Shown here piece by piece: positions 14,516 to 18,243 of a stretch of DNA of 49,001 nucleotides. Within the stretch, counting starts at the first letter, position 1; every line of letters begins with the position of its first letter. The stretch is from a virus. The notes under the pieces are model-generated. The model was not told the origin of the DNA, ran no database searches, and saw only the letters and a program-made list of their open reading frames with translations. The stretch is taken from positions 1 to 49,001 of the IMG/VR virus record IMGVR_UViG_3300049927_000019. The stretch is one strand, 5' to 3'. The position numbers and the translations under genes were made by a program.

Positions 14516-15229
14516 TCACTTATTCGTTGTATCTAATTCGTATGCTTCTACTATCTCTTTTGCTAACTGACTTCTAACTACATCATTCTTATCAAATTCT
14601 AAAATACTAATTGATCTAATATTATCTAAAACTTTTAAAGCATGTGCCAATCCAGACATCTTCCCTTTTGGTAAATCATTCTGGCTTCCATCTCCAGTTA
14701 TAACCATTTTACTCTTATAACCTATACGTGTCAAGAACATCTTCATTTGTTCAGGACTAGTGTTTTGTGCTTCGTCTAACACAACAAAGGAATGGTTAAG
14801 AGTCCTTCCTCGCATATATGCTAAAGGGGCTAACTCTATTTCCCGATTATTAATCATCATTTGCAGGTTAATAGTACCTACTAAATCGGTCAAGATGTCG
14901 AAGATAGGTCTAAAATATGGGTTAACTTTCTCTTCAATTGTGCCTGGCAAAAATCCTAAACTTTCTCCTGCTTCAACAATAGGACGTGTTAGAACAATCC
15001 TTTTAATCTTACCTGTTCTTAGGTGTTGTATGGCGCTTGCTATTGCTACGTGTGTCTTTCCTGTACCAGCTGGTCCTATCCCAAAACTAACATCGTGATG
15101 GTCAATATCAGACATAAAATCTTTTTGGTGGGCATTAAGAGGTTTAAATAATGCCTTTGCAGCTTCTTCTCGTTCTAATAACTCTTCTTCGTATTCGTCT
15201 ACAGCTATACGTTTCGAGATTCTGCCCAT
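14516..15229 (-). CDS. phoH: PhoH-like ATPase
   Basis: This 237-residue protein has Walker A GPAGTGKT (52-59), VLTRPIVEAGESLGFLPG and Walker B FVVLDEAQN (about 148-156), followed by TGDGSQNDLP. All are hallmarks of the PhoH superfamily-1-like ATPases common in phages. RNA remodelling or phosphate-stress roles have been proposed, but the phage function is unsettled. It has its own promoter and lies just downstream of the structured RNA region. About 108 nt without a gene separates it from the holin. Confidence 0.9.
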   Translation of the reverse strand: MGRISKRIAVDEYEEELLEREEAAKALFKPLNAHQKDFMSDIDHHDVSFGIGPAGTGKTHVAIASAIQHLRTGKIKRIVLTRPIVEAGESLGFLPGTIEEKVNPYFRPIFDILTDLVGTINLQMMINNREIELAPLAYMRGRTLNHSFVVLDEAQNTSPEQMKMFLTRIGYKSKMVITGDGSQNDLPKGKMSGLAHALKVLDNIRSISILEFDKNDVVRSQLAKEIVEAYELDTTNK

Positions 15230-15259
15230 TTAAAGCCCCTAGGTAGTAAACACAACTTA

Positions 15260-15287
15260 AGTATAGCATAGATTACAACAATGTCAA
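15260..15287 (-). promoter_or_regulatory. Sigma70-type promoter for phoH
   Basis: On the minus strand TTGACA (15287-15282), a 16-bp spacer and TATACT (15265-15260) lie about 30 nt before the PhoH ATG. Matches are 6/6 and 5/6 to consensus. Confidence 0.7.
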
Positions 15288-15299
15288 ATCGGCTAGAGT

Positions 15300-15506
15300 C
15301 CCGTCAGTCACTCTATTTAATCTCCGACACTCAAGGAGGAGAACCTAAACTGGCGCGAGTGCCTTTAACATGACCTTAGCGTTAATTATGTACCGGGTTA
15401 ACGTCTCGCATAACTGGAGGGGCGTAAAGTCACTTAGTACTTTATCTTAGGATGATTAGTGGTTCATGACCCGAGCTAATCCCAATCTTTTTAGTAGCCC
15501 CATAAC
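15300..15506 (-). ncRNA. Structured RNA segment, 3' of tRNA-Met
   Basis: No ORF is plausible here, and nested inverted repeats can be traced on the minus strand. GGGGC (15501-15497) pairs with GCCCC (15423-15419). This closes two hairpins: GATTAG/CTAATC (15476-15481 with 15454-15459) and TAAAGT/ACTTTA (15425-15430 with 15439-15444). A second helix GCGAG/CTCGC (15405-15409 with 15355-15359) encloses CGTTAA/TTAACG (15380-15385 with 15398-15403). The word CCAGTTATG occurs twice. It is probably the 3' domain of the same large RNA that contains the tRNA. Confidence 0.55.
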
Positions 15507-15581
15507 TGGATGCGGGAGGAGGAGTCGAACCTCCAGCTGTGGATTATGAGTCCACTGTTTTGCCAGTTAAACCATCCCGCG
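15507..15581 (-). tRNA. tRNA-Met (CAT) with initiator-like C1xA72 mismatch
   Basis: This is a full 75-nt cloverleaf with encoded CCA. The acceptor is CGCGGGA/TCCCGCA, with T8 and A14 in place and the D-stem GTTT/AAAC. The anticodon stem GTGGA/TCCAC has loop CTCATAA (anticodon CAT at 15548-15546). The T-arm is GGAGG-TTCGACT-CCTCC, and base 73 is T. The first pair is C1 against A72, unpaired as in bacterial initiator tRNA. However, the anticodon stem lacks the three G:C pairs of initiators, and T11:A24 is elongator-like. It lies inside the structured RNA region. Confidence 0.93.
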
Positions 15582-15589
15582 ATAAAAGG

Positions 15590-16517
15590 ATGGAGGAACT
15601 TTCATCCTCCGGATATGGCTCAACCTGCTCTATGTAACTCTGTTAGTATTTAACGTTGTGCTAACATCACCCATAGTCTCAATCTGCCACTAATATTCTG
15701 CAAGGTATTTTACTCTGCCCCTTGCGAGCCGTAACTTCGGGAGAGAAGTTGATTAATGACGATATGGACATGGATTTAATTCTGCCCACTTTACACCCAA
15801 AACGCGTACTCTCGGTCTTCACCTTTCACGGCGGTTGCCTTCATACGGTACCTTGTTACACTCGTGACCCCACCCCAGGTCAAAAGAAGGCATCGTCTGT
15901 GCCTTTCGTAGCTATGCAGATGGACAAGACTATTTGCCATCCTGTGGTACCCAACCGTTGGCAGCGCGATTGTCCTCTGCTGCCTCTTAGGGTTGCTACT
16001 AGCTTTCAAAAAATTTAGGCGGAGAGTCGAACTCCTACATTCACCTCAACCATTCTAAATTCTAGAATATGGAATGGCTGTCATCAGTGAAGACCCCAGT
16101 AGTCATACTAGTACTTGAAGGGCAGTGATCAGCTCCCCGCTTTCCTAAGCCTAAAACTTGTACTTCACCAAAACTACATTTGCAGATTTGGTGAAGAAAT
16201 TAGTGAGGATATCGGTTGCCTCGACCGTCAGCGCATATAGCTATGGACTCTGAAGCCCGCACCCTCTAACGTCAGGACAGACGTCGTGAGTTCGTCACGA
16301 GTTATCCAATTTTTACCGAGGTAGGAGCTGTCCCTCTGTTATCTCAATGATTCAGTTCTTTAAACCCCTTAACGGAGTCCTGTTATCGGTTGAGAATCCA
16401 TGTGTGGATAGTGCTCTTGGTACAATCCAAGGAGATATAACCACGTTATTTTTATATCATCCCAAAGTCACGGGCTTCTGCCTCATCTGGGGATTTATAG
16501 ATATATTTTCTTAGTGT
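15590..16517 (-). ncRNA. Giant structured non-coding RNA, candidate GOLLD/ROOL-like
   Basis: About 930 nt lies between a perfect promoter and tRNA-Met. No convincing ORF is present, base composition is more balanced than in the genes around, and there are many inverted repeats. Examples are a 10-bp perfect stem 16163-16172/16187-16196 (14-nt loop), adjacent stems 16269-16273/16280-16284 and 16284-16289/16295-16300, GGCAGC/GCTGCC 15960-15965/15979-15984, TGTTAG/CTAACA 15641-15646/15661-15666, and GGAGGA/TCCTCC 15592-15597/15605-15610. A lone T-arm-like GTTCGACTC sits near 16026-16034. Size, phage setting and tRNA adjacency fit the GOLLD class; family membership is inferred, not shown. Confidence 0.6.
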
Positions 16518-16523
16518 ATATAC

Positions 16524-16552
16524 ATTATACACTATTATTACTCTTCTGTCAA
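16524..16552 (-). promoter_or_regulatory. Perfect-consensus sigma70 promoter for the structured RNA
   Basis: On the minus strand TTGACA (16552-16547), a 17-bp spacer and TATAAT (16529-16524) give a 12/12 match. The start is expected near 16517. The -35 box lies in the last codons of the upstream 54-residue gene. It should drive the RNA, the tRNA and perhaps phoH and the late genes beyond. Confidence 0.85.
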
Positions 16553-16702
16553 GGAGTTTTTAATATATTTCCAAACTTTCTTCCGAACCCTATCCCAATC
16601 CTCTTTCGAATACCACTTTCCTTCCGCAGCCATGGACTGCCTGCTATTCTCGGATAAATGCTCCCGTAAGTCCTTTTTAGATAGTTTTCTAACCTTTTTC
16701 AC
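16538..16702 (-). CDS. Small basic protein, GTG start
   Basis: This 54-residue product begins (V/M)KKVRKLSKKDLREHLSE and ends YIKNSLTEE. The GTG overlaps the stop of the upstream gene by 1 nt (TAGTG), the usual coupling signal. It is Lys/Arg/Trp-rich and may bind nucleic acid. Function is unknown. Its 3' end contains the -35 box of the RNA promoter. Confidence 0.55.
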   Translation of the reverse strand: MKKVRKLSKKDLREHLSENSRQSMAAEGKWYSKEDWDRVRKKVWKYIKNSLTEE

Positions 16703-17112
16703 TAATACCCAACCCTACTAATATCATGATCACTTAAAACTTGATAATAGTGATCTCTTACTAACTCAATCAAGTCATCCTTGGTTCCTGCAAATCCATG
16801 CTTGTAAATGTCTCGAAGCTTTGACCCTATCTCCCATATAGCACTAGACATCTTACGGGCATCTAGGACATCCTGGAAGTCATCTACGACGTCTTGATCA
16901 GTCATATCGAAGTATAGCACGGCTGTTTTACCGTATGGCATCATTAATCCAGGATGTTTCTCTATTTGTCCATGTGATCTAAAAGTCTCTCTAGACTCTT
17001 TAAGCTCCTCCTCTGTCATAGGTACCACACCCCCATCTGTGGTTAATAGATGGCCATCTCCTTTCTCTACTTCATTCTCCTGTTTCGTTTCAAATTTCTC
17101 TTGCATTACCAT
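16702..17112 (-). CDS. Conserved phage hypothetical protein
   Basis: This 136-residue acidic protein has a disordered-looking N-terminus. Its C-terminal helical segment (DDFQDVLDARKMSSAIWEIG...LRDHYYQVL) resembles a small helical phage protein often annotated as hypothetical, in which an AL-D---YLR core precedes an acidic helix. It is coupled to the downstream 54-residue gene. No function can be given. Confidence 0.6.
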   Translation of the reverse strand: MVMQEKFETKQENEVEKGDGHLLTTDGGVVPMTEEELKESRETFRSHGQIEKHPGLMMPYGKTAVLYFDMTDQDVVDDFQDVLDARKMSSAIWEIGSKLRDIYKHGFAGTKDDLIELVRDHYYQVLSDHDISRVGY

Positions 17113-17131: not shown

Positions 17132-17160
17132 TTGACAACTTCACCTCTTCTCAGTATAAT
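17132..17160 (+). promoter_or_regulatory. Perfect-consensus promoter pointing right, antisense to late gene
   Basis: TTGACA (17132-17137), a 17-bp spacer and TATAAT (17155-17160) give a 12/12 match on the plus strand. The predicted start, about 17167, faces into the 3' end of the leftward gene 17238-17765. No rightward gene starts before 18771. It could give an antisense RNA or be a far-upstream early promoter reading through the control region. Confidence 0.75.
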
Positions 17161-17765: not shown

Positions 17766-17804
17766 TTAAATCTCCTAGTCGCCTCTTCTCTACTGTACAC
17801 CATA

Positions 17805-17833
17805 ACCTTAGCATACTTATCAGTAAATGTCAA
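17805..17833 (-). promoter_or_regulatory. Possible promoter of the leftward arm
   Basis: On the minus strand TTGACA (17833-17828), 17 bp and TAAGGT (17810-17805) with TGC just upstream (extended -10). It lies 40 nt before the ATG at 17765. The -10 matches only 3/6, so this may need an activator. Confidence 0.45.
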
Positions 17834-17986
17834 GGTTATTCTGTGTATAAGTGACAAATAAACAAAATAACTTACCTATTTGTCTTGTTTACTGTCTAAC
17901 CACATATTTATTGGTTTGTAGGTCAACAGGATACTTCCTCTATTGGGAAGTTTCTATCCAGTATCTTTCCCTTTACAATACGAGAT

Positions 17987-18004
17987 ATTGACAAATATGT
18001 CAAT
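17987..18004. promoter_or_regulatory. Inverted repeat built on TTGACA
   Basis: A perfect ATTGACA / TGTCAAT repeat with a 4-bp AATA spacer. A shorter relative, TTGACA-A-TGTCAA, lies at 18718-18730 over the -35 box of the early promoter. Both could be operators of one regulator. Confidence 0.4.
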
Positions 18005-18243
18005 TTCAGGTGTTTTAAAGGGTATTTTAAAGCAGTTGGAGACATTTTGTCACCTACTCCTTTTTATTAAATTTTACTACTTTTTATACCTCCTTTATTA
18101 CCTATTTTCTCTTATTTCTGCCTATATTCTTTATGTCTGCTGCACTGCATGATGGTCTGAGAATATTGATTTTACTAGAGAGTGGGAACAGTACACATAT
18201 TTCCTCAAGATTACTTTGTCCCCCACCCCCTTTTTGTGTGAGA

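Follow-up and report, generated by a model that had tools for sequence, protein, structure and literature searches.

The window, which is the whole stretch of 49,001 nucleotides analyzed here, covers a 49-kb virus record carrying genes for a terminase, an SU10-type portal, a major head protein, PhoH, a primase-helicase and polA. On the minus strand, the phoH-like gene and a small gene of unassigned function enclose about 1.47 kb in which no credible gene is found. The features located in and around this gap are listed in Table 1. The G+C content is 0.45-0.49 within 15290-16517, compared with ~0.36 on both flanks. In A+T-rich genomes, structured RNAs often have a raised G+C content.

The stretch 15290-16517 can be considered as a unit of its own, because it is located between two minus-strand promoters (12/12 and 11/12). 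The perfect promoter described in the sequence-only reading is indeed present, and the start of transcription is expected near 16517. The putative RNA, which would be encoded from there to just before the tRNA gene, owes its proposed ends to this promoter and to a terminator-like site. The latter site is weak, as such sites are not more numerous in the scanned region than in shuffled sequence.

Elsewhere in the window, a second 12/12 sigma70 promoter (17132-17160, plus strand) reads into minus-strand genes and might yield an antisense transcript. In the A+T-rich, non-coding stretch 17800-18099, both strands show excess folding (z -2.4 to -4.0). This stretch, where the direction of the genes and the GC skew both switch, is a possible control or origin region. 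Genes for PrkA kinase, DUF444 and SpoVR, which are usually grouped in bacterial genomes, adjoin each other in this phage at 25478-30542 on the plus strand.

Table 1. Features of the window around the tRNA-Met gene, in window coordinates, and the large RNA of Schitoviridae phages, in coordinates of the respective loci.
Feature	Position	Strand	Basis or remark
phoH-like gene, first of the downstream genes	14516-15229	-	Pfam PhoH, 6.9e-86
sigma70-type promoter, 11/12, with TG, before phoH	15260-15287	-	sequence scan
non-coding stretch from tRNA to next promoter, fold excess absent	15290-15506	-	z +0.93
tRNA-Met (CAU)	15507-15581	-	Rfam tRNA, 60.4 bits; sole tRNA found in the window
proposed large non-coding RNA, ~930 nt	15587-16517	-	without ORF; G+C 0.45-0.49; fold z -3.05 to -3.43
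terminator-like hairpin GGAGG..CCUCC then AUCCUUUUAU, directly before tRNA	15592-15610	-	possible RNA 3' end
predicted domain with long-range 10-bp helix, GGUCUUCACU (16095-16086) with GGUGAAGACC (15823-15814)	15814-16095	-	probability 0.99, whole-length fold
predicted domain closed by CAGCUCCU (16330-16323) with GGGAGCUG (16137-16130)	16130-16330	-	probability 0.95, single sequence
perfect 10-bp hairpin CUUCACCAAA/UUUGGUGAAG with inner CUGC/GUAG stem	16163-16196	-	pair probability 0.98
long interrupted hairpin GAGGGUG-CGG-GCUUC / GAGGC-CCG-UAUCCUC	16205-16266	-	probability 0.98-0.99
sigma70-type promoter TTGACA-17-TATAAT, 12/12	16524-16552	-	sequence scan
small gene, function unassigned, other flank of the gap	16702-17112	-	
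large RNA of Schitoviridae (Xanthomonas/Stenotrophomonas phages)	L095:3680-4494, L096:4309-5050, L111:1235-2106, L112:1516-2149, L113:1173-2198, L114:1257-2182	+	

The part upstream of the tRNA folds more stably than shuffled sequence, with a z-score of -3.8 against 20 shuffles and of -3.05 against 100. When 150 shuffles were used, the z-score was -3.43 and none of the 150 was as low. As a genome background, 27 other window/strand tests of 930 nt gave an average z of -1.0 (sd 1.05). Fold energy alone is indecisive, since one of those 27 tests scores lower (-3.98). The measure was also calibrated on known RNAs: a genuine ROOL RNA reaches only -1.31, and two Schitoviridae RNAs reach -6.4 and -6.9, so that the z-score can neither establish nor rule out a functional RNA. 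It agrees with a structured RNA, short of proof. The 217 nt downstream of the tRNA show no fold excess, and multi-helix junctions on both sides of tRNA-Met, as had been proposed, are thus not supported. Likewise, the tRNA is not embedded, as had been suggested, between two structured halves; it follows the structured part.

Several individual elements of the fold are predicted with high pair probability. The 10-bp perfect hairpin previously noticed at 16163-16196 was recovered with arms 16196-16187/16172-16163, and hairpin stems of at least 10 Watson-Crick pairs occur in only 0.7% of 150 shuffles. The paired hairpins claimed at 16269-16300 survived in part: TCGTGA/TCACGA is predicted to pair locally (0.62), whereas the neighboring CGTC/GACG pairing is poorly determined. 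Two larger domains and a long interrupted hairpin are predicted in addition. The structure model is nevertheless provisional, because the shorter piece 16000-16149, folded separately, adopts a competing local structure. Palindromes suited to kissing loops are found at chance level (three seen, 3.4 expected), and the A-richness of the unpaired positions is the same as in shuffles.

By blastn, the tRNA-Met shares 77-81% identity over its length with that of phages RiverRider and Philippe. No further tRNA or tmRNA gene was detected in the region: one tRNA is called at standard settings, and the same holds for cmscan at E<=10. With relaxed ARAGORN settings, low-quality calls appear here and there on the two strands, as chance predicts. 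These matches are incoherent, and hidden tRNAs or a tmRNA are not supported. Between the stretch preceding the tRNA and the D-arm side of the tRNA, an 11-bp pairing is predicted (15565-15625, minus strand). This pairing is not significant, since shuffled leaders reach it in 6% of cases and windows of the genome in 4%. E. coli genomes were searched for an rRNA match to the 16S-like stretch GTAACAAGGTA-CCGTA (E<=10), with a negative result. At 15291-15333 (minus strand), the full-length Ocean-VII RNA model matches below threshold (19.1 bits, cut-off 53.5), which is probably noise; a sub-threshold Plastid-ycf2 match (cmscan, E<=10) corresponds to the antisense of the tRNA and was dismissed as noise too.

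Relatives of the putative RNA were sought in several collections. When the region was compared by blastn with phage, plasmid and E. coli sequences, only tRNA or chance matches were obtained, and an nhmmer search of all loci retrieved matched the tRNA only. IMG/VR was scanned with the phoH, terminase, portal and polA proteins, with a translation of part of the region and with three DNA patterns, and yielded no copy of the RNA. In GTDB, the DNA-pattern scan was empty, and the phoH scan retrieved mainly bacterial phoH genes and no RNA copy. The DNA-pattern scans depend on a short exact match and may therefore have overlooked a homologue of 65-75% identity. The nearest relative, L003, has a terminase 72% identical to that of the window and, as its sequence stops 665 bases before the terminase, falls short of the RNA locus. 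The 1.3-kb unannotated gap of MW202785 was examined as a counterpart and, on inspection, reads as coding sequence.

ORF-less stretches that yield abundant transcripts have also been described in other phages. Phage K carries two lncRNAs beside its tRNAs (PMC9241854), and the most abundant transcript of ICP1, of ~800 nt, lies inside an ORF-less 1-kb gap (PMC7567579). The region resembles both in its lack of ORFs, and phage K also in the neighboring tRNA genes. They differ in that expression was measured in those phages, while the window RNA is predicted from sequence. Blastn of the whole region over the "phages" collection, which includes the phage K and ICP1 records, found tRNA matches only.

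The main rival to a functional large RNA is a long leader or spacer of the tRNA, that is, a decayed tRNA array or filler whose function is limited to the delivery of tRNA-Met. The fold excess would then be a by-product of the higher G+C and of remnants of old RNA genes. One genuine tRNA is indeed located at the end of the region, a T-arm-like GGAGTTCGACTCTCC occurs near 16018-16035, the fold excess is only moderate, and the region is conserved in no relative found. Decay of an array fits poorly with the single tRNA seen even at E<=10, and with the chance-like character of the relaxed ARAGORN calls. It would also be unusual for filler to have its own 12/12 promoter, 930 nt ahead of the tRNA, and a 10-bp hairpin found in <1% of shuffles. 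This explanation is regarded as possible, though rather doubtful.

Size, phage setting and tRNA contact had led to the suggestion that the RNA belongs to GOLLD or ROOL. Both RNAs often occur near tRNAs in phages and form RNA-only cages, their function being unknown (PMC12286853). GOLLD is often >800 nt long, is encoded by phages or prophages, and often lies near tRNAs or contains them; GOLLD env-38 adjoins a Met-tRNA (PMC12286853). The phage setting near a tRNA gene expected of GOLLD is found here, with terminase, portal and major head protein genes and the tRNA-Met. A further trait of GOLLD is increased expression during lytic growth. ROOL shares the phage setting and the tRNA neighborhood and is known as an independent, abundant RNA (PMC12286853, PMC5643018), exceeding the level of 16S rRNA in Lactobacillus salivarius (PMC5643018).

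Neither of the two Rfam models matches the window at E<=10. RF03087 (ROOL; 574 positions, 99.1-bit cut-off) does recognize its family elsewhere, with 130 bits in pMP118 (L104:2264-2806) and 265 bits in phage phiEF24C. RF02032 represents the conserved 3' domain of GOLLD (416 positions, 150-bit cut-off), and its negative result is weaker than that for ROOL because no record searched gave a positive control above the cut-off. Besides sub-threshold noise, cmscan of the region reports the tRNA as sole match and neither GOLLD nor ROOL. This silence on large RNA families is weak evidence, since cmscan at E<=1 missed the genuine pMP118 ROOL that the genome search scores at 130 bits. More generally, large RNA families can be lost through the cmscan filters. 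The strong ROOL match of Enterococcus phage phiEF24C is located at 139666-140242 on the minus strand (locus L110).

The window RNA also differs from both families in its layout. Unlike GOLLD, it shows the order RNA then tRNA and has no tRNA within a structured linker, and its ~930 nt exceed the ~520-660 nt of ROOL. The proposed membership in GOLLD or ROOL is not supported. A very diverged member, past the reach of the Rfam models, would fit in size, phage host and tRNA neighborhood (PMC12286853), but is unlikely given the unmatched models (the GOLLD search having no positive control) and the ease with which ROOL is found elsewhere.

That the region is a decayed or unusual protein-coding sequence, or alternatively a DNA element (for instance an origin), is quite improbable. 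Its largest ORFs, of 98 and 72 amino acids, overlap at the same place on opposite strands, which could be taken in its favor. Against a coding role, all six frames of 15290-16525 contain 20-31 stop codons each, leaving open stretches of at most 113 codons on the plus strand and 84 codons on the minus strand, and no relative of the 98-aa frame was found in viral_contigs. The turn of the GC skew, near 18.2-18.5 kb, lies outside the region and argues against an origin. The absence of a credible gene from this ~1.2 kb, as first read from the sequence, is thereby upheld.

A further parallel to the window RNA was found in phages of the Schitoviridae. The tRNA arrays of Philippe and RiverRider contain a non-coding stretch of 630-1000 nt directly after tRNA-Gln, which is also present in Pokken, Paxi, PB119 and Piffle, and partially in C121. 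Base pairs change on both sides, for example GAAGCTGCAC/GTGCAGCTTC versus GAAGTCACAC/GTGTGACTTC. For a core of 167 positions, the covariation score is 0.166, compared with 0.101 for shuffles and 0.008-0.061 for slid controls, from five sequences only. The stretch matches no Rfam family at gathering scores, nor the GOLLD and ROOL models. Schitoviridae phages thus carry, after tRNA-Gln, a conserved, covarying large RNA that is outside Rfam, and this RNA is better supported than that of the window. A published description was not found in a narrow literature search. Upstream of tRNA-Met in RiverRider and Philippe, sequences resembling the hammerhead ribozyme (CTGATGAG...CGAAAC with flanking stems) were read by eye (L096 ~2590-2660, L095 ~2500-2570); Rfam does not list them at gathering scores.

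The Schitoviridae RNA resembles the window RNA in being ~630-1000 nt long, non-coding, structured and adjacent to tRNA genes, and differs in its much stronger fold excess (z -6.4 and -6.9 versus -3.4). Common membership in one family is highly improbable and mostly refuted: the tRNA-Met of the window has its closest counterparts in Philippe and RiverRider, both of which possess such an RNA, but model R1, built from the 167-position core of five members, scores <=0.2 bits across 15200-16600 when run without filters, versus 55.4 bits for the left-out RiverRider copy, and the Schitoviridae sequence profile, too, finds no match in the window region (R1 spans only the 167-position part).

The reading that we favor, with modest confidence, is that 15290-16517 (minus strand) forms a non-coding transcription unit of its own, whose large RNA product, an orphan with respect to Rfam, works in the manner of the large tRNA-adjacent RNAs of other phages. 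It is preferred because of the 12/12 promoter, the separate 11/12 promoter before phoH and the stops in all frames. Further reasons are the raised G+C, the 150 of 150 shuffles beaten, the rarity of the 10-bp hairpin, a z-score stronger than that of the genuine ROOL, and the precedents of GOLLD/ROOL, phage K and ICP1. It is weakened by the single sequence without homologue, the one window in 27 with a lower z and the weak terminator-like site. The initial description of a large non-coding unit beside a phage tRNA agrees with the lack of ORFs, the promoter of its own and a fold potential above that of shuffled sequence.

In the model that we infer for its transcription, ends, abundance, oligomerization, detailed structure and role, the consensus sigma70 promoter of this short-tailed-type phage would drive an RNA of ~930 nt. 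This RNA would end at the hairpin-U site directly before tRNA-Met or read through it, and tRNA-Met would be matured from the same transcript. By analogy with the known large phage RNAs, it is most likely abundant, stable and structured, made during infection, and acts as RNA without being translated; it is perhaps a homo-oligomeric scaffold. A further-reaching proposal, that the ~930-nt RNA represents a new class of phage RNAs, giant and structured, with no relation to GOLLD or ROOL, transcribed from a strong promoter of its own next to a tRNA and forming an RNA-only particle or scaffold in infection, can be put forward only tentatively.

Should unrelated large RNAs repeatedly evolve in phages beside tRNA genes, the shared position, and not the sequence, would be the clue to function. 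The window RNA is one candidate for such an RNA. Cultured phages and laboratory hosts are available for the Schitoviridae RNA, which makes it the better-supported candidate.
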